58,446 nucleotides of DNA, taken from contig JAGLYP010000016.1 in assembly GCA_023132155.1 (NCBI GenBank), forward strand, positions 1 to 58,446, written 5' to 3'. This document shows positions 28,102 to 37,378 of the stretch, one piece after another. Within the stretch, counting starts at the first letter, position 1, and every line of letters begins with the position of its first letter. Both the position numbers and the translations under genes were made by a program. The notes beneath the pieces were generated by a model, which was given only the letters and a program-made list of their open reading frames with translations, did no database searches and was not told the origin of the DNA. The stretch comes from Candidatus Parcubacteria bacterium. Its GTDB lineage: Bacteria; Patescibacteriota; Patescibacteriia; Patescibacteriales; UBA12075.

Positions 28102-28133
28102 AAAAAAAACCAACCCAAAAAAGGCTAGTTTTT
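28102..28133 (-). terminator. leader hairpin with U-tract (putative attenuator) of the giant gene
   Basis: On the minus strand AAAAACTAGCC pairs with GGTTGGTTTTT (11 pairs, three of them G-U) around a TTTTTTG loop and is followed by more T. It lies 27 bases before the start codon and downstream of the promoter, so it would end transcription inside the leader. The leader of the gene at 33406-35334 has an equivalent hairpin with compensatory base changes. Confidence 0.6.
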
Positions 28134-28160
28134 ACAAAACAAAAAATTATCGGGGATAAA

Positions 28161-28187
28161 TTGACGCATGGGGAAATGAATCAGTTT
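28161..28187 (-). promoter_or_regulatory. conserved leader box of the giant gene
   Basis: The minus strand reads AACTGATTCATTTCCCCATG and then CGTCAA. The same box with ATG-TATCAA occurs at 35404-35430 in front of another surface gene. Its C-C-A-T-G-C-G is complementary to CGCATGG just after the attenuator hairpin (28093-28099), so an alternative pairing is possible. Confidence 0.55.
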
Positions 28188-28263
28188 ATTATTTTAATTA
28201 AATTTCTTAAAATTTTCTTAAAAATATTTAATTTTTTCTTATTTTTTCTTTTTTCTTTATTAT

Positions 28264-28269
28264 ATTATA
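28264..28269 (-). promoter_or_regulatory. extended -10 promoter of the giant surface gene
   Basis: The minus strand reads TGTTATAATATAATAAAG, a TGn-TATAAT extended -10. There is no clear TTGACA, but an upstream AATGTATTAAA is shared with the equivalent promoter at 35466-35471. The predicted leader is about 180 nt. Confidence 0.6.
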
Positions 28270-28512
28270 ACACAAAAAAAACAAATTTAATACATTTTTT
28301 AATCTTTATTACACAATTTTTCTCAAAAAAAATCAAGCTAAATTTTAAAAATAATTTATTCAATATTAGCTAAATTATTTTTTAATTTTTATTAACTTAC
28401 AATCTTTTGCGCAAATTTAATTTACAAAAATTAATAAAAATTTTTTTATTTTTAAAAAATCAAATAATTATCCACAAACAGTCACACAACACGCATCACA
28501 TATCACGTATCA

Positions 28513-28691: not shown

Positions 28692-31600
28692 TTACTGCCA
28701 CATACAACACGCCAAAGATTTAGTCTGTGTGCAATTAACCAACTTTCCATATCCTCCGGTATTGCCGTTAAAAATCCAAAACGCGCCCAAATAACTGATA
28801 TCATTCGTATTCCAACCGTCACAATCATTAGAGTTAGCCGTATAGCCCGGAGGCCCCTCAGCTATCCAAGCATCAGGATTAGCTGTTCCCCATCCGGAAA
28901 TATCATCCTGTTCAATACTGACTAAAATATCATAAGTGCGGCAAAAATGGCTTCCAGCGAATTCATAATCGCAAATCGCGTTGGCTGCCGCGTAACCCGA
29001 CAAAGTGCCGGTAGCAATATGCCCGTCAGAGATAGCCGTAGTAGTGCCGATAAATTTAGAATAAGTTTGCGTTATTCCGCTACTGTCCAAACCTAAAGAA
29101 CTGGTTGCGGCCCAAACCCCTTGTCCATCTCCATCTGATTGCCAAACATAACCATCTGTCCCTGTAGAAGTTATGCCAAATTTATACACTTCATCCAAAT
29201 CCAAATTCTCCCGCGCGCCGGTAGCGGTAGCGGCTCCGGTGCCGCCGTAAGCCAGCGCGATTGGATCGGCTTTCCAGGAACCTTGTACAATTTCTCCCAA
29301 GGCGGTAATGCTTGTAGTAGTCGCCCAATGAGCATCAGCGCCGTCTGAATATAATATATAACCGGTTGGTCCCAATTCCAAACGGCTCCATTTATTATCG
29401 GAATTGACAACCATTAAGTCACCGCGCGCCAAAGTGCTGGTTGCGTCAACATCACTATGCGTAACCGACAATATGCCATGCTGAGAGGCGGGAGAAGTGC
29501 TTGCCCAAGTTAAATTTCCGCCGGAAACAATCAAAACTTCACCATTATCACCGATTGGAAATCCTGCCAAAGTATTCTCGGAAGAAGCGTAAACCAAAGA
29601 CTGATTACTAATTGAACTAAAACCGGTTCCGCCATGAGCTACGCCAATCGTATCGCCTTGCCAAGTTCCTGTGGCAATCACGCCGACAAAGCTTAAATTC
29701 GGCAGCTCAATAATACTGGAAATACTTGTAGTCGCGAGCAAACGTCCGTCAAATTGATCATCAAAACGAGAATCAGACCAATACAAATTTGTCGTGCCCT
29801 CATCAAGCGCGTCAGTGCTAGTCGCGTACCAATCAGCCAAAGTAAAATATCCGGCTGACGCGTGACTGCCCCAATTATAGGCAATATCATAATAAGTGGA
29901 TGAAGCATAAACTAAATCATAAATGGAAGAAGAAGCGAAAACCGCGTCCCAATCAGCGCTTCCCGCTGTTACCGTGTTATAGGCGCTATTCCATTTTGAA
30001 GTAGACGCGGTTGATGGAATTTCATAACCGCCAGCCACGCCGATTTGATTATCCGTAAAGGTTAAATTATTGTTCGCGCCTGTTACTCGTCCGAAATAAG
30101 CTAAATTCCAATGTGAAGACGAGGCGATATAAGCATCAATAATCGGGTCGCCGTTCCATGCGCCAACCGTAATTGTTCCGACTGTCGCTAAATTCTCTAA
30201 ATTAACCAATTGCGGAGCGGAGGTTGTTGCCAGCCAATCAGCTAAAATAAATAATTGGTTAACTTCATAACCGTCAAAAGTTCCTGCCCAGTTGCCGCCG
30301 GTATTCAAGCTTAAAACATTACCGGTTAATTCAACTCCCGAGTTATCGTCTGTTAAATCGGTACGAATTACCGCGATTGTATTGGAGGCGATAGACACGC
30401 CGTTATCAAAATATAAAAATCCTGTCGCGCTGGTCATGTCCGCGCCTGTGCCGCCGCGGCTTGGGCTGAGCTGCGCTTCCGAAGCGATTGTGCTGGCATC
30501 AGTCCAATAGGCCACCTGATTGGCAACGCCGTTAATAGCGCTCCAAGATCCGCTGACAACCTGCACCATACCGTTCCAGCCGGAAGAATCAGCGCCGGTA
30601 CCGCCGCTTTCAGCGCCTAATGTTCCGCCTATGCCGTTAAAATCAATACCCAATGAACTGGTTGCCACCCAAACCGGTTTTCCGTTAACGGCTTGCAAGA
30701 TACGCCCTTCGGCACCGATTAATAATTCATCAATTATATCGCTTGAAGTGGCAAAAACAATTGAACCTGATTGCCAAGACGATTTTCCGGTACCGCCGAA
30801 AAGCGGACTGATTACATCGGCCTGCCAAGTACCGGCTTCAATTACGCCTAAGGCGGTGATATCGGTTGTGGTTGACCAGGCGGCATCAATACCGTCGGAA
30901 CGCAAAATATAACCGGTCGGTCCGAGTCCGAGACGCGTCCATTTAGCGGTTGACGAGCCGAAAATTAAATCCCCGCGAGCCGTTACCGCCGGCTCGGTAT
31001 CAGGATGCATAGCTGATAATAAATCATGCGAAGTTCCAGGCGAAGTAGAAGCCCAAGTCGGCGTGCCGCCTTGCATCACAAGCGCGTAACCGTTCGCGCC
31101 GGGCATAATTTGCGATAAAATATTATCCGCCGAAGCATACACTAAAGAATTCGCCTCAAAAGTAGATGTGCCTGTTCCGCCGAAAGCCACTTCCAAAATA
31201 TGGTTTGACGTGGTTGAAAGATAGCCTTGCCCTGAATGATTGCCCCAAGAATAAGCCGTATTCCAATTATTACTATTGTTTTGCAGGCTAACTATATTCC
31301 CGGCGCCATCGCCAAGCAAAATTCCACTGGGCGTGGTTGAACCGGTGCCGCCATAAGCCACCGCCAAAGCGTTAAGCAATGAAAGCTCTTGCGCGCTTAC
31401 GCTGCCGCCGAACGCGGCATTGCCGATTACTTCCAAGTCAATATTGTCGGTAGTGGTGGCGGCACCGCCGATAATTATCACTTGATTAATATCAGTCGGA
31501 CGAATCGCCAAGCTATCGCTTGTTGTCGCCCATAAAGACGACTCGCCTCCGACTGTTAAGTCCGGCTGCCACACCGGAATACCGCCTGTCATTTTTAAAA

Positions 31601-33197
31601 CATAACCGTCGGTTCCGGCTAAAATCTCGCCGATTGTATTATCCACGGGAGCGTAAAGCAATGAATTAGCCTCAAAAGTAGAGGTTCCTGTTCCGCCATA
31701 AGCTACGCCGATAATATTTCCCTGCCAAGCGCCTGCCGTAACCGTTCCGTTTTCATTAATTAAAAGCTGGCTGCCGATATTGGCGCCAACCGACAATAAG
31801 GCGGCGGGAGTAGTTGTGCCTATCCCAAAATATCCGGCAGTACTTATAAAAATTGAAGATGTTGCCGATAATGCACTGCCTATTTCCGCGTAATAAGGAA
31901 TTTGTCCGATTGTGCCGGGATTAACATAAGTAAAACTGGTCGGCGCGCCCCATCTTAAATTGCCATTGCCATCCGTAATCAAAGCTTTTCCGTCGGTACC
32001 GGCATCAGCGGGCAAAGTTAAAATAAAATTACTTGCGTAGCTGGAACTGGCGCGGATTGCCATATAATTAGAACTGTCAAAATCGTAAAATCTTAATTCC
32101 TGGCTGCCGCTAATACCAACAACATCAAACCATGATGATCCTTCCACTTCCAATTTAACATCAATCGGAGAAGTAGTGCTATTGTTGCCAAGCACAACCG
32201 CCTGCCCTGAATCAGACTGAAAGATAAATAAATCATTTGAAGACGAAGCCCAAAGGCCGGAACCTCCTCCTGATCCGGCAAAATCAACATCCCAATACAT
32301 CTCTCCGCTTGCCGCGAATTTTAAAACATATCCGGCTGAAGCGCCCGCGCTATCCGCCGGTAAAATATAATCTCCAATTTGTACTCGACCGTCATTAAGC
32401 ACGGAAAGATATGTGCTTGTGCCTTTTTTAAATTCAACGATATTGCCACTGCCATTTTGCGTTACGGTTAAAGCGGAAATGCTGGAACTGGTGGCGATTG
32501 ATAAAATTTCCTCAAAAGACCACTCCCCTGAAATTGCCGCGTCTGTTGATAAATTCGCGAAATCGCTCGCATCGTAACCGTCCAGCTTATCCGCGTTAAA
32601 AGCGCTCGCCGCGGAATTATATAATTCGCGCGGCTGCATTGTCTCACTGTTAAAAACGACTTCCAAATAAAGCGGCTGATTAAAATCAACGCTTGCCAAG
32701 CTGCTTACAGAGCCCAAAGCGACATTAATCACTCCGCCTTCTATAAAAGGACGATTATTAATGACATCGCCCATAGGCCAAATTTCCGAGGAACTGGCAA
32801 CGGTTATTGTACTGGCGGCATGATTAAAATCCACTATTAAAGCGCCGGCGCTTGAAGAATCGGAAGACAAATACTGCCCAACTCTAAGAGTGCTGGAAGC
32901 GCTTCCGCCGCTATAAGTATATACTATGCCATCCGCTGATGAACCAACTATGTTAATTGTTCCGGAGAAACAATTCGCGGCCGTTAAATCTTCGCTCCAG
33001 AGCGAAGCGCCGCCCGTAGCCTCGGAATACAAACGAAAACTCATGTTATAAACTCCATCGGCAAGTTCAGACCCGTCTGTTTCCGTAATTTTGCCGGTAA
33101 AATCCAACATAGGATTAATCTGCGCGCGCGCGAAACCAACCGCGGTAAATGCGGCAATTAAAATTAAAGCGTAAATTGTAAACTTTAAAAATTTCAT
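28692..33197 (-). CDS. secreted fibre-like surface protein (1501 aa)
   Basis: It has a signal peptide (residues 1 to about 25, ending F-A-R-A) and then an N-terminal domain with D-F-T-G-K-I-T-E, D-G-V-Y-N-M-S-F-R-L-Y and L-W-S-E-D, typical of the first domain of Patescibacteria surface proteins. About 1100 residues of fibre-like repeats follow (S-A-L-T-V-T-Q-N-G-S-G, G-I-G-T-T-T-P, A-x-G-G-T-G), of the same families as in the giant protein next to it. The last roughly 120 residues contain six or more cysteines (A-I-C-D-Y-E, H-F-C-R-T-Y-D-I-L, N-D-C-D-G-W, S-L-A-C-C-M-W-Q), a compact disulfide-rich domain that resembles secreted DUF1554/lectin-like ends. AGGTGAG precedes the ATG. No promoter is evident directly upstream, so it may be read from the gene at 35334. 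Role inferred: adhesion. Confidence 0.88.
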   Translation of the reverse strand: MKFLKFTIYALILIAAFTAVGFARAQINPMLDFTGKITETDGSELADGVYNMSFRLYSEATGGASLWSEDLTAANCFSGTINIVGSSADGIVYTYSGGSASSTLRVGQYLSSDSSSAGALIVDFNHAASTITVASSSEIWPMGDVINNRPFIEGGVINVALGSVSSLASVDFNQPLYLEVVFNSETMQPRELYNSAASAFNADKLDGYDASDFANLSTDAAISGEWSFEEILSIATSSSISALTVTQNGSGNIVEFKKGTSTYLSVLNDGRVQIGDYILPADSAGASAGYVLKFAASGEMYWDVDFAGSGGGSGLWASSSNDLFIFQSDSGQAVVLGNNSTTSPIDVKLEVEGSSWFDVVGISGSQELRFYDFDSSNYMAIRASSSYASNFILTLPADAGTDGKALITDGNGNLRWGAPTSFTYVNPGTIGQIPYYAEIGSALSATSSIFISTAGYFGIGTTTPAALLSVGANIGSQLLINENGTVTAGAWQGNIIGVAYGGTGTSTFEANSLLYAPVDNTIGEILAGTDGYVLKMTGGIPVWQPDLTVGGESSLWATTSDSLAIRPTDINQVIIIGGAATTTDNIDLEVIGNAAFGGSVSAQELSLLNALAVAYGGTGSTTPSGILLGDGAGNIVSLQNNSNNWNTAYSWGNHSGQGYLSTTSNHILEVAFGGTGTSTFEANSLVYASADNILSQIMPGANGYALVMQGGTPTWASTSPGTSHDLLSAMHPDTEPAVTARGDLIFGSSTAKWTRLGLGPTGYILRSDGIDAAWSTTTDITALGVIEAGTWQADVISPLFGGTGKSSWQSGSIVFATSSDIIDELLIGAEGRILQAVNGKPVWVATSSLGIDFNGIGGTLGAESGGTGADSSGWNGMVQVVSGSWSAINGVANQVAYWTDASTIASEAQLSPSRGGTGADMTSATGFLYFDNGVSIASNTIAVIRTDLTDDNSGVELTGNVLSLNTGGNWAGTFDGYEVNQLFILADWLATTSAPQLVNLENLATVGTITVGAWNGDPIIDAYIASSSHWNLAYFGRVTGANNNLTFTDNQIGVAGGYEIPSTASTSKWNSAYNTVTAGSADWDAVFASSSIYDLVYASSTYYDIAYNWGSHASAGYFTLADWYATSTDALDEGTTNLYWSDSRFDDQFDGRLLATTSISSIIELPNLSFVGVIATGTWQGDTIGVAHGGTGFSSISNQSLVYASSENTLAGFPIGDNGEVLIVSGGNLTWASTSPASQHGILSVTHSDVDATSTLARGDLMVVNSDNKWSRLELGPTGYILYSDGADAHWATTTSITALGEIVQGSWKADPIALAYGGTGAATATGARENLDLDEVYKFGITSTGTDGYVWQSDGDGQGVWAATSSLGLDSSGITQTYSKFIGTTTAISDGHIATGTLSGYAAANAICDYEFAGSHFCRTYDILVSIEQDDISGWGTANPDAWIAEGPPGYTANSNDCDGWNTNDISYLGAFWIFNGNTGGYGKLVNCTQTKSLACCMWQ

Positions 33198-33405: not shown

Positions 33406-35334
33406 CTACATAATTTTTTTCATCCACCCAAAGGTATTTTCTAAAATATTCATAATTATTTGAAAAATTGATTCTTTTTTCTTGGCAGTCATAAACGTGT
33501 GCGGCTTTGACAAAACTTTATTCCCTCCGGAATCAATTGACTCTACGCGGAAAGTATAAACTATTCCCGGCTTAAATTTGGTAATAACTATCACGTGTTC
33601 TTTGGTATAATTCGTATTTAATTCGGTTGATTCTTTTAATCCAATATTTGTGCCGTGTACGCCTTCTTGATAATAAATTCGCGCGGTGGCCGATTCATTG
33701 GTCATCCAGGAAATAATCGTCTGCGTTTTATTATTTCTATCCAAAAACACGGTTGAATCAGCTTTAATGCGGGTTACTTGAGGCGGAGCGTCATCTTCCG
33801 CTGTTGAAAAATTATTAAGCGCTTCAGACGCGCGATTGCCCTGCTTGTCATTGCTAATCAAAGAAACACTGTAAACAGTACCGCCGACAAATTCAGAAAT
33901 TGTAATTTCATGAATTACGGAATTAACATTATCTTTAACGGTTTTAGTTAAATCAATTGCCAAATTACCTCCATGATAAGGAGCAAAAGACACGGCGGAA
34001 TCAGCCTCTTTGTTGGTTACCCATTTAAAAACAGCCGTTTGATCATCTATTATCTGCGAAAAAAAACTTGTTATTGACAACTCTTCGATTGATGTTTGAA
34101 ACGTAAAATCACGCGAACGGGCAATAGCGCCGATTCTCGGCTTGCTTCTTAATTGAAAATGATAAACCGTGTTCGGTGATAAATTATACAAAACCACTTC
34201 ATGATCCGCGCTTAAATTTTCAGTATCGCCGACAACTTGGTTATACGGCTCGTCCGCTCCCGCGCGATAATTTTCTTCTTCAGAAAAAGCAACCCGCGAA
34301 TCTGCTTCAATATCGGTTGTCCAAAAAATTGTCGCCTTATCCGCTCCGATTTGTACGCGCGGCTCACCGGAAAGAATAGGAGTAGGCGCTAAATTATGTA
34401 AATCTTCAAGAGAATTAATATCAGCCAGAGGATTCGGGCTTAATTCATTTAATGACACTTCAGGAAAAATTCTATTGAAAAAATCAAAAATAGTTAAAGT
34501 CGTGTTTTCCAAAAAACCAGGCTCATCGTCCTCCGCGGCGTCTTCATCCGATTCCTCGTCATCCGCGCTTTCCCCGTCAATGACTCCGGCTAAAGTGGAA
34601 AAAATAATATCCTCGGAATAGCCGACATTTCCCCAGGAATCCGAACTAAGCGAACGCAGATGATATTCTGTTTTCGGTTTTAAATTTTTCAAGTTTACCG
34701 TATGAGACGTGCTTGTCCCCCAATATCCGTAAGCCGCGCCATAATTAATATCAACGCCGTATTCCACAAAACCGGTTGCTTCTTCATCTGTTTTCCATGA
34801 GATTTTCACCTCAACATTGCTAATTACTTCAACATTAAGCTCGGTAATAACCGGCGGAATTTTATCGGTTTTATCAATAATCAAAATTCCGCCGCCGCCG
34901 CTCACGACTGCTTCTTCTTCCTCTCCGCTTGCGTCCGTTGCCGTGGTAAAAATATTTGTCGCAGGCGTATAAACGCTTATTCCGCCATTCACTCTCTGTG
35001 ATTTAACGCGATAATAATAAGCTGTATTAGCGGCGAGTCCGCTTAAGTCCACACTATGGCTGATCGCGTTTTTCACACTGGTTCCCTGTTCTTTGCTGGC
35101 GGAAAAATCACTATTCACATCATATTCAACAAAAGAATCGCTCAGCTGATCGCTTGTCCAAACAACAGTTGCCGTCTGGCCGGAAACGCTCGCGCTAACG
35201 CCGCTGATTACGGGACCGTCAAAAACATGCATTACGCTTTCATGAATCACATAGCTGCTGCTCTGCATCGCGGCTTGCGACATAAAGGGCAGGAATAAAA
35301 ATATTAAAAATAAATATTTAATTTTTCTTTTCAT
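33406..35334 (-). CDS. secreted fibronectin-III-like repeat protein (642 aa)
   Basis: It has a signal peptide (K-R-K-I-K-Y then L-F-L-I-F-L-F-L-P-F-M-S-Q-A-A) and five fibronectin-III / purple-acid-phosphatase-N-like domains. Each shows a W-x-T-D-x-x-A-D-S or W-x-T-N-E strand and an N-T-x-Y-x-F-x-x-x-S ending, starting at about residues 40, 160, 315, 410 and 510. A Gly-rich then acidic linker (E-S-A-D-D-E-E-S-D-E-D-A-A-E-D) lies between domains 2 and 3. The C-terminus is a short amphipathic or hydrophobic helix (I-I-M-N-I-L-E-N-T-F-G-W). It is the first gene of the surface cluster and has the same leader type as the giant gene. There is no Shine-Dalgarno site. Role inferred: a structural or adhesive surface component. 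Confidence 0.88.
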   Translation of the reverse strand: MKRKIKYLFLIFLFLPFMSQAAMQSSSYVIHESVMHVFDGPVISGVSASVSGQTATVVWTSDQLSDSFVEYDVNSDFSASKEQGTSVKNAISHSVDLSGLAANTAYYYRVKSQRVNGGISVYTPATNIFTTATDASGEEEEAVVSGGGGILIIDKTDKIPPVITELNVEVISNVEVKISWKTDEEATGFVEYGVDINYGAAYGYWGTSTSHTVNLKNLKPKTEYHLRSLSSDSWGNVGYSEDIIFSTLAGVIDGESADDEESDEDAAEDDEPGFLENTTLTIFDFFNRIFPEVSLNELSPNPLADINSLEDLHNLAPTPILSGEPRVQIGADKATIFWTTDIEADSRVAFSEEENYRAGADEPYNQVVGDTENLSADHEVVLYNLSPNTVYHFQLRSKPRIGAIARSRDFTFQTSIEELSITSFFSQIIDDQTAVFKWVTNKEADSAVSFAPYHGGNLAIDLTKTVKDNVNSVIHEITISEFVGGTVYSVSLISNDKQGNRASEALNNFSTAEDDAPPQVTRIKADSTVFLDRNNKTQTIISWMTNESATARIYYQEGVHGTNIGLKESTELNTNYTKEHVIVITKFKPGIVYTFRVESIDSGGNKVLSKPHTFMTAKKKESIFQIIMNILENTFGWMKKIM

Positions 35335-35346
35335 GTTTTAGAAAAC

Positions 35347-35376
35347 AAAAAAACCAAACCAAAAAGTTCAGTTTTT
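35347..35376 (-). terminator. leader hairpin with U-tract (putative attenuator) of the fibronectin-like gene
   Basis: On the minus strand AAAAACTGAAC pairs with GTTTGGTTTTT (11 pairs) and a T run follows. Compared with 28102-28133, one pair changed on both sides (C-G to A-U) and two changed between G-U and A-U, so the fold is kept while the sequence differs. Confidence 0.6.
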
Positions 35377-35403
35377 CACAAAACAAAAAAATTTATTAAT
35401 CTT

Positions 35404-35430
35404 TTGATACATGGGGAAATGAATCAGTTA
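35404..35430 (-). promoter_or_regulatory. conserved leader box of the fibronectin-like gene
   Basis: The minus strand reads TAACTGATTCATTTCCCCATG then TATCAA, identical to the box at 28161-28187 over about 20 bases and placed at the same point between promoter and hairpin. Confidence 0.55.
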
Positions 35431-35465
35431 TTAAATTTAAAGCATTTTCACTTTTTCTTTATTAT

Positions 35466-35471
35466 ATTATA
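35466..35471 (-). promoter_or_regulatory. extended -10 promoter of the surface gene cluster
   Basis: The minus strand reads TGTTATAATATAATAAAG, identical to that at 28264, with the same upstream AATGTATTAAA. No -35 match. The predicted leader is about 120 nt. Confidence 0.6.
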
Positions 35472-35593
35472 ACATAAATAAATATTTTTTAATACATTTT
35501 TACGCGTAATTATGCCATTTTTTAAATAAAAAATCAAGAGCCGATATTTTTTTATGATATAATCATTTTATTTAATATTAGTAATATAAAAAT

Positions 35594-35621
35594 CCCGCCC
35601 TTCACGAAGGGCGGGGTTTTT
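35594..35621. terminator. strong intrinsic terminator
   Basis: CCCGCCCTTC, two-base loop, GAAGGGCGGG, then GTTTTTAT. AAAAA on the other side allows use from both strands. On the minus strand it would end the transcript of the gene at 35703-36881. Confidence 0.85.
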
Positions 35622-35702
35622 ATATTATATTTTTTAAAGCTCTAAAATTTATTACAACATATAATCTTTACAAAACATTATCCACAACTTTATTTTAAAA
35701 TT

Positions 35703-36881
35703 TTAACTTTTCAAAATAATATCTATATCCCGAAAAGAAATTTTTTTCTTGTCTGTTAAATTAATTCTTTTAAAATTTTCTAAATATTTTTTTAACTCTT
35801 CCTTTTTGTCGCCAGCTTCATCCAGCTTTAAACATAGCTCTCTTACCGCGTAATCTTCGTTGTTGTCAAATATCACAACTCCTTTTTTAAATGCCTCCCT
35901 AATATTGCCAATTCTTTTTTTGTAATTAAATATTTTTTCAACATACGCAATAACTTCATTATACGCCCTAAATTCTTTTTGGCTTTTTTTGTCTTTTTTA
36001 TAGCGATATTTTTCTCTTAATTTTTTCCACTCTGATAAACTTTTTTCTTTTACCCTGCTAAAACCCGCGTTATACGCGCCCATCAATTCGGTTTGCGCGC
36101 TTGCAACGTCTCCTTTTTCGGCCTTTCTTCTTCCCACCGAATAACCATATTTATCATCCCAAAGCTGCATTAAATATATTTTCCCAAAAGCGCGGCTATA
36201 ATCGCTTTTTTGAATTATTAATTCTTTTATTTCTTTTCTATCATTTTTAGATAATTCTTCCGGTCCATTCCATTCAAAACCGGTATTCCTCTTTAGTATA
36301 TTTAAATACCTGGTAACATCAATTATTGAACTTGTCATATTCTGCATTTCACCCAGCGCGCCTGAGCGCGATTTGGCGTCAATTTCCCCTCTTGATTCCT
36401 GGCATTGCTGGGCAATTAGCAAATCCTTTTCAAAAATTTTTCCGGGAAATTTTTCCGAATCTTTTGATAATTCCAAATACGCCTTTAAATAATGGTCTGC
36501 CAAATTATTAATCTCCATTTTTTCTTTATTTTTTTTCTTGCTATTTTTTGCCTCGCCTTTGGACTTGTCCGCCATAGTTTCAAGGTCGGAGGACTTGTCC
36601 GCCATAGTTTCAAGGTCGGAGGACTTGTCCGCCATAGTTTCAAGGTCGGAGGACTTTTTCTCTTCATCTTCTTCAAATATTTCTTTCAAACCGACACCCG
36701 TTGCCAAAGCCGCCGCGGTTAAGCCTGCCGCTTTTAAAAACCTTCGCCTCCCAGGACTTTCCGGTTTTCCCGATTTATCAATTTCTGATTCATTTCTTCT
36801 TATAATTTTCGGCTCATCGGCTTTCGTCCGCTTTCTTTTTTCAATCTTTTGATTTTGCAAAAATGCTTTTTCAATATTCAT
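35703..36881 (-). CDS. Tat-signal lytic-transglycosylase-like protein
   Basis: R-R-R-F-L-K-A-A-G followed by a hydrophobic A-rich stretch is a twin-arginine signal at about residue 45. Three exact 10-residue repeats (S-S-D-L-E-T-M-A-D-K) and a Lys/Glu-rich linker follow. The folded part has C-Q-E-S-R-G-E then S-R-S-G-A-L-G-E-M-Q, the pattern around the catalytic Glu of SLT-family transglycosylases, and later G-A-Y-N-A-G-F-S-R-V, which matches their A-Y-N-A-G motif. It would cleave peptidoglycan glycan strands outside the membrane. The frame extends upstream to 36902, but the extra residues (M-A-G-M-T-K-N) are encoded by the end of a palindromic repeat, so the ATG at 36881 is preferred. Neither start has a clear ribosome binding site. 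The divergence of the core makes activity uncertain. Confidence 0.75.
   Translation of the reverse strand: MNIEKAFLQNQKIEKRKRTKADEPKIIRRNESEIDKSGKPESPGRRRFLKAAGLTAAALATGVGLKEIFEEDEEKKSSDLETMADKSSDLETMADKSSDLETMADKSKGEAKNSKKKNKEKMEINNLADHYLKAYLELSKDSEKFPGKIFEKDLLIAQQCQESRGEIDAKSRSGALGEMQNMTSSIIDVTRYLNILKRNTGFEWNGPEELSKNDRKEIKELIIQKSDYSRAFGKIYLMQLWDDKYGYSVGRRKAEKGDVASAQTELMGAYNAGFSRVKEKSLSEWKKLREKYRYKKDKKSQKEFRAYNEVIAYVEKIFNYKKRIGNIREAFKKGVVIFDNNEDYAVRELCLKLDEAGDKKEELKKYLENFKRINLTDKKKISFRDIDIILKS
36562..36651. repeat. three exact 30-base tandem repeats in coding sequence
   Basis: Three identical units begin at 36562, 36592 and 36622, with a partial fourth after them. They encode S-S-D-L-E-T-M-A-D-K in the linker after the Tat signal. 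There are no spacers, so this is not a CRISPR array. Copy number could change by slippage without shifting the frame. Confidence 0.9.
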
Positions 36882-36899
36882 ATTTTTTGTCATTCCCGC

Positions 36900-37378
36900 C
36901 ACACAATAGCCATTCCTTTTGTCATCTCGACCGAAGCGTTAGTTGAGCGGAGAGATCTTTAATATATTTAAACTTTTTCACGGATTTTTTAGTAGATAAT
37001 TATTTCTTATTTATTTTATATATTAATCATTTTTTGTAATTCACGTATTATAGATCTCTCCTCGCTTCGCTCGTTCGAGATGACAAAATGAAAGAAAAAT
37101 TCCTTTTTTGTCAGCGAATTAATAAACATCTACAATTCCCGACACACAATAGCCCTTCCTTTTGTCATCTCGACCGAAGCGTTAGTTGAGCGGAGAGATC
37201 TTTAATATATTTAAACTTTTTCACGGATTTTTTAGTAGATAATTATTTCTTATTTATTTTATATATTAATCACTTTTTGTAATTCATGTATTATAGATCT
37301 CTCCTCGCTTCGCTCGTTCGAGATGACAAAATGAAGGAAGAATTCTTTTTTTGCCAGCGAATTAATTAACTTCTACAG
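36900..37378. repeat. tandem 243-base duplication of an intergenic palindromic repeat
   Basis: ACACAATAGC starts at 36901 and again at 37144. The two units match almost base for base, including the TTTTGTCATCTCGACCGAAGC and CTCGTTCGAGATGACAAAA ends. The second copy runs through the stop codon and last codons of the MscS gene (stop at 37362), and the first ends in a decayed version of that sequence. No gene is visible in 36903-37361. Confidence 0.85.

Follow-up and report, generated by a model that had tools for sequence, protein, structure and literature searches.

The leaders of two surface genes

The window, by which we mean the whole 58,446-nucleotide stretch of DNA that was analyzed, belongs to the 1.23-Mb genome of a Falkowbacteria-type bacterium (G000). 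Two genes for exported proteins on its minus strand, a giant gene and a shorter fn3-domain gene, are preceded by the same elements in the same order: an extended -10 promoter, a 20-base box and a U-tailed hairpin, after which the gene begins (Table 1). This arrangement, which a first-pass annotation of the sequence had described, was found at both genes, with 12 to 26 nt separating the hairpin from the gene start. Even when 3 mismatches were allowed, no third copy of the box was found in the 1.23-Mb genome. Together with the bases that follow it in copy 1 (CGTCA), the box forms the hairpin UGAU-U-CAU-UUCCCC-AUG-C-GUCA. Within the giant protein, LVIVD repeats and right-handed beta-helix (NosD-like) stretches were recognized.

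Between the fn3 leader and a gene for an SLT-domain protein (35703-36902) lies a strong GC-rich hairpin with T runs (35581-35628), which a terminator scan called a terminator on both strands. The fn3 leader therefore probably starts its own transcript.

Table 1. Coordinates of leader elements and adjoining genes in the window, and of a structured RNA found upstream of HTH_17-type genes
Feature	Position	Strand	Remarks
Extended -10 promoter TGTTATAATATAATAAAG, giant-gene leader	28255..28272	-	From sequence; 18-mer identical in copy 2 and G001
Box AACTGATTCATTTCCCCATG, copy 1	28167..28186	-	Two copies only in the genome; RNAalifold consensus hairpin
Putative leader peptide ORF MRQFIPDNFLFCKN, then stop	28125..28169	-	CCCC-ATG context; stop in terminator 5' arm
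Intrinsic-terminator-like hairpin (attenuator), copy 1	28102..28133	-	12 pairs and U run; stem 28133-28105, U run to 28102
Giant exported protein gene, 8,792 aa	1697..28075	-	ATG at 28075; signal-like N-terminal segment
Extended -10 promoter, fn3-gene leader	35457..35474	-	Same 18-mer as copy 1
Box, copy 2	35410..35429	-	Followed by TATCA, closing the same hairpin; RNAalifold consensus
Putative leader peptide ORF MYQKINKFFCFVKN, then stop	35368..35412	-	Stop in terminator 5' arm
Intrinsic-terminator-like hairpin (attenuator), copy 2	35347..35376	-	
Exported 642-aa protein gene	33406..35334	-	ATG at 35334; fn3 / Pur_ac_phosph_N-like domains
Exported 1,501-aa protein gene between both leaders	28692..33197	-	Own start without CCCC box
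Structured RNA, ~155 nt, upstream of HTH_17/excisionase-like gene	L117:9155-9314 (G000:C28)		
Same RNA	G001:C11:7066-7221		
Same RNA	G002:C159:11996-12153		
Same RNA	L217 (G006:C21:13982-14133)		

Leaders in related genomes

A search for the box in 59 genomes pointed to a genome from another genus (G006) and to a sister species in the same genus (G001). Two exact copies of the box are present in G006, before orthologs of the same two genes and with the gene order kept; G001 has a single copy, preceding its fn3 ortholog. More distant leaders were located by means of fn3 orthologs and giant-gene N-termini, whose upstream sequences were then read. In this way, looser leaders were found before orthologs in G007, G009, G014 and G033. 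That of G007 has CTGATTCCCCCATGCTCAA followed by a terminator; G014 and G033 share ATCCCC(C)ATG, a short ORF and terminators that are identical to each other; upstream of the G009 giant gene we found ATTTCCCCATGCTAAATAA and terminator arms CTAACTCGC and GCGAAGTTAG. The elements kept in these distant leaders are CCCC-AUG, the short ORF and the terminator, but not the remainder of the box. The fn3 leader of G009 has a terminator but not the CCCC-AUG, and several family members are without such a leader. Copies thus lie before orthologs of the surface genes in relatives, and the absence of such copies, which the first-pass annotation had named as one observation that would count against a shared regulatory element, is not what was seen.

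In G006 a palindromic insert of ~130 nt sits between terminator and ATG. The element has outer arms GCAAATCTTTGCT and AGCAAAGATTTGC and occurs in at least 3 copies within 32.6 kb of this genome (L010:2210-2345, L010:11097-11222 and L011:1550-1666, on G006:C22), in two cases precisely between the terminator of a leader and the ATG of the gene; the arms of its copies differ in matching ways.

According to a GTDB scan, most carriers of these fn3 orthologs are MAGs named Candidatus Falkowbacteria or Parcubacteria. An HTH_17-type gene is located directly upstream of fn3 in G003, G004, G005, G011 and G016 (L046, L049, L050, L052 and L053), and no window-type leader was found upstream of fn3 in these genomes. 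Two of the HTH_17-type genes start at CCC(C)AGTG. At L053 (G004:C4, about 204750-204920), tandem hairpins with loops CCCATG and CCCCATG are located between HTH_17 and fn3, the second of which is enclosed by a long stem with a folding energy of -32 kcal/mol over 75 nt.

The terminator hairpin

Comparison of the two window hairpins pair by pair bore out the earlier description of one pair changed on both sides and two switches between A-U and G-U: the differences are one C-G/A-U double change, one A-U/G-U switch and one G-U/A-U switch. On the gene strand the predicted folding energies are -12.2 kcal/mol for copy 1 (z -6.9) and -9.0 kcal/mol for copy 2 (z -4.6). On the opposite strand they are just -2.3 and -2.8 kcal/mol because of the G-U pairs in the hairpin, which fixes the RNA strand. 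Over five leaders, 93% of the cells in the terminator stem are paired and two pairs are doubly changed, against at most 77% paired cells in slid controls. RNAalifold recovered both the box hairpin and the terminator from the five leaders without prior input, and a gene-strand hairpin with a U run is predicted to be stable in ten leaders. A predicted intrinsic terminator, whose termination activity is likewise a prediction, lies between promoter and structural gene.

A covariance-model search, proposed earlier as a check on the leaders, was done across the order with a model built from the five leaders. It gave five sites with E ≤ 4e-15, the next best match having an E value of ~2e-5. Among the weak matches (E 1e-5 to 0.1), nine that were inspected were generic terminators without the full box, and three others (G007:C129, G014:C21 and G033:C21) are true leaders, recognized through their fn3 orthologs. 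When the leader model was applied to 381 sampled genomes of the class, no convincing leader was found outside the family. Rfam covariance models had no match above the gathering score at the leaders. A simple consensus terminator scan listed neither of the two leader terminators, the stems of which extend into the U tract.

CCCC-AUG as a start-codon context

The box ends in CCCC-AUG, a feature that the first-pass annotation had not pointed out, and the use of this context was counted over 972 of the 1,231 kb of G000. CCCC occurs immediately 5' to the first ATG in 7 of 596 ORFs and at none of 3,756 internal in-frame ATGs, and the signal is confined to that offset. The base at +4 is C in all nine CCC-ATG starts. 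The N-terminus is hydrophobic in 9 of 13 CCC-ATG ORFs, as opposed to about one third of the others (Fisher p 0.014). In addition, some orthologs of the same genes themselves start at CCC(C)ATG, namely both G011 fn3 paralogs, the G033 fn3 gene and the G004 giant gene. From the bias of CCCC-ATG to gene starts and from these orthologs, we take the box AUG to be, very likely, a start codon; its context appears specific to gene starts and has no Shine-Dalgarno sequence.

Genes with CCCC-ATG-C starts and no Shine-Dalgarno sequence mostly encode proteins that are exported or lie in the membrane, signal peptidase I among them. They are found on G000 C6, C12, C13, C19, C35, C39 and C41, and also in G002, G004, G005, G007, G009, G011 and G033. 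The idea that CCCC-AUG marks leaderless transcripts was considered and set aside, because an extended -10 sequence lies some 35 to 70 nt upstream of some such genes and CCCC therefore does not as a rule coincide with the start of transcription. A C-rich sequence just 5' to the AUG can work as a ribosome binding site in a reconstituted system, but does so poorly in living E. coli (PMC3310771); by analogy with such sites, initiation at CCCC-AUG without a Shine-Dalgarno sequence is plausible.

The putative leader peptide

The AUG of the box, which has no Shine-Dalgarno sequence upstream, opens a short ORF of 14 codons in both window copies (MRQFIPDNFLFCKN and MYQKINKFFCFVKN). The corresponding ORFs would encode MYQFTPYYFCNCKN and MYQFSFKKNFLFCVN in G006 and MLNNNFLYLKLC in G009. 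The stop codon is within the 5' arm of the terminator in both leaders of G000, both of G006 and that of G009; it is 8 nt before the stem in G014 (MHYKNKNL) and G033 (MQYKNKNF), and in the 3' arm in G007. In G001, where the frame is shifted, the ORF continues past the terminator, and its end overlaps the fn3 ATG. In all nine CCCC-AUG leaders, then, the ORF reaches the terminator stem or ends at most 8 nt short of it.

The peptide is MxQ...FC.KN-like in four leaders and different in the others, and since the G001 frame is shifted relative to that of its closest relative, neither sequence nor length of the peptide appears to be conserved across the leaders. Between G014 and G033 there are two synonymous changes, one stop-for-stop change and two replacements. 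Frame +1 is open nearly as often as frame 0 across the leaders. A shuffle estimate for openness of the ORF gave 4e-4, a product that treats related leaders as independent and for that reason overstates coding constraint. These comparisons are no more than suggestive of coding constraint, and it is probable that the leader carries a leader peptide.

A shared hairpin at other loci

The 13-mer CATTTCCCCATGC occurs eight times in 109 genomes searched, always within this family. One site is leader copy 1. In G000 the 13-mer is also found at the start codon of a gene for an exported protein of 596 aa, as it is in the ortholog of that gene in G001; further sites are at an exported-gene start in G005 and between HTH_17 and fn3 in G004. 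The remaining sites are in a structured RNA of ~155 nt that precedes an HTH_17 gene in G000, G001 and G002. In this RNA a long closing helix is combined with a hairpin, GUGGA-AA-CAU-UUCCCC-AUG-C-UCCAC, and a model of the RNA found a further copy before an HTH_17 gene in G006 (E 5e-19). In that copy the closing and hairpin stems vary by compensation and the GCAU-CCCC-AUGC tip is kept. The RNA matched no Rfam family, and a model search of 381 sampled genomes of the class found none outside the family.

The presence of this hairpin at exported-gene starts, in the leaders and in the HTH_17 leader RNA makes a common RNA-level regulon possible. Tentatively, the CAU-(UU)CCCC-AUG hairpin might mark a surface-display regulon in Falkowbacteria. 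It would act directly at the start codons of exported genes, indirectly at the giant and fn3 genes, by way of their leader-peptide attenuators, and also in the HTH_17 leader. It might be read by one hypothetical trans-acting factor or by a specialized Shine-Dalgarno-free initiation. The CAU-UUCCCC-AUG hairpin can form at only about half of the CCCC-AUG starts.

A proposed mechanism and its alternatives

A conserved attenuator-like leader is present before the two surface genes. The first-pass annotation had suggested a new cis-regulatory RNA for surface display that switches between two folds, and of this the conserved leader stands but the claim to a wholly new class of RNA does not, the leaders being similar to known leader-peptide attenuators. 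The proposed switch, a pairing of CCATGCG with CGCATGG, was not upheld either. Both halves are present in copy 1, the second of them past the terminator; in copy 2 and G001 all that is left is a 5-bp CATG-centered match, G006 has none at that place, and the pairing does not compete with the terminator. We also considered pairing of the 5' half of the box with the 3' arm of the terminator as an antiterminator; it is good in copy 1 and in one G006 leader (G006a) and at shuffle level in most others. With its CCCC-AUG start and an ORF stopping in the terminator, a translated leader peptide accounts for more than a switch between folds does.

We propose, with a probability of about one half, that the leaders are leader-peptide attenuators in which translation of the leader masks the terminator and permits transcription of the surface gene. 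Each surface gene would be transcribed from its own promoter through the leader with its short ORF and then the intrinsic terminator. A ribosome that initiates at CCCC-AUG and reaches the stop codon would cover the 5' arm of the terminator; the hairpin could then not form, and RNA polymerase would continue into the surface gene. If the leader were untranslated, the hairpin would form and transcription would stop early. The C-rich start site, the AUG of which may be buried in the CAU-UUCCCC-AUG hairpin, would be the point of control, and anything that alters initiation at this AUG would set transcription of the surface gene. These costly surface proteins would then probably be made only when ribosomes translate the leader.

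The CCCC hairpin could instead be the target of a hypothetical RNA-binding factor that, in the manner of CsrA, recognizes CAU-UUCCCC-AUG with its C-rich loop and represses by covering the start codon. The leaders would then be controlled through leader translation or through the terminator, and the RNA of the HTH_17 gene would be another target or a decoy. The same hairpin tip is indeed seen both at exported-gene start codons and in a non-coding structured RNA, where compensatory change in the stem leaves the CCCC tip intact. However, the CAU/AUG pairing is available at just about half of the starts, as noted above, and among leaders other than the five close ones only that of G014 has a hairpin that is not weak. 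We regard such a factor as somewhat unlikely; it could coexist with leader-peptide attenuation, for which it would supply the signal. A stand-alone small RNA of ~110 to 160 nt, made up of promoter, box and terminator, would pair through its C-rich loop with G-rich target mRNAs and affect the surface genes by read-through only. Its size, terminator and CCCC loop would be like those of sX13 of Xanthomonas (PMC3771888), but each of the nine CCCC-AUG leaders found immediately precedes an ortholog of one of the two surface genes, CCCC is located at start codons genome-wide, and the loop context is lost in G007, G009, G014 and G033. This makes a small RNA unlikely.

A weak constitutive terminator without regulation, present twice because one 5' region was duplicated, might merely lower expression. 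The window copies are highly similar, and a terminator that precedes a gene may be a passive one, but in another genus the same two genes still have their copies although the linkers have diverged, box, AUG and stop have stayed in place, and compensatory changes have preserved the stem; we therefore consider a passive terminator quite improbable. That the box is a DNA operator downstream of the promoter, bound by a transcription factor such as the HTH_17 protein, appears highly improbable. The box is an imperfect inverted repeat, and HTH_17 genes adjoin fn3 in several relatives. Nevertheless, its conserved part is the asymmetric center, CCCC-ATG is locked to in-frame start codons, and the hairpin varies by G-U pairs and, in the HTH_17 leader RNA, by compensatory pairs; the lock to start codons and the compensation point to RNA as the active form.

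Patescibacteria are tiny, probably host-attached bacteria, and literature text searches found nothing on the control of giant surface proteins in this group. If leader-peptide attenuation is correct, transcription for a protein of 8,800 residues would be tied to the translation of a 14-codon ORF, a point of control that is direct and can be tested. For Patescibacteria, translation starts that lack a Shine-Dalgarno sequence would likewise become more accessible to study through the CCCC-AUG context and the shared hairpin.

Comparison with known systems

The closest parallel considered is the pil1 pilus locus of Streptococcus gallolyticus, in which a leader ORF and then an intrinsic terminator likewise precede surface-appendage genes. 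In pil1, mutation of the leader start lowers transcription, deletion of the terminator raises it, and translation blocks termination if the stop codon is located inside the hairpin or past it (PMC3894217). Unlike pil1, the leaders described here have no GCAGA-type repeats and no phase variation, start at CCCC-AUG without a Shine-Dalgarno sequence, occur twice in one locus, and are known from their sequences. sX13-type small RNAs (PMC3771888) are similar in having CCCC in a hairpin loop and a short unit with a terminator; here, however, start codons directly follow the CCCC, and the unit remains upstream of surface genes. The C-rich ribosome binding sites (PMC3310771) also have their C-rich sequence directly 5' to the AUG and no Shine-Dalgarno sequence, but those came from an in vitro selection with E. 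coli ribosomes, whereas here a fixed CCCC-AUG is found at few, mostly exported, genes. As in the trp/his-type attenuators of amino-acid biosynthesis, the putative leader peptide overlaps the terminator; in contrast to them, no run of regulatory codons is apparent, no conserved antiterminator was found in the leaders, and the target is not a biosynthetic operon. Relative to known attenuators, what would be new is that the start is C-rich, which is unusual, and that the leaders may be linked to a hairpin motif of wider occurrence.
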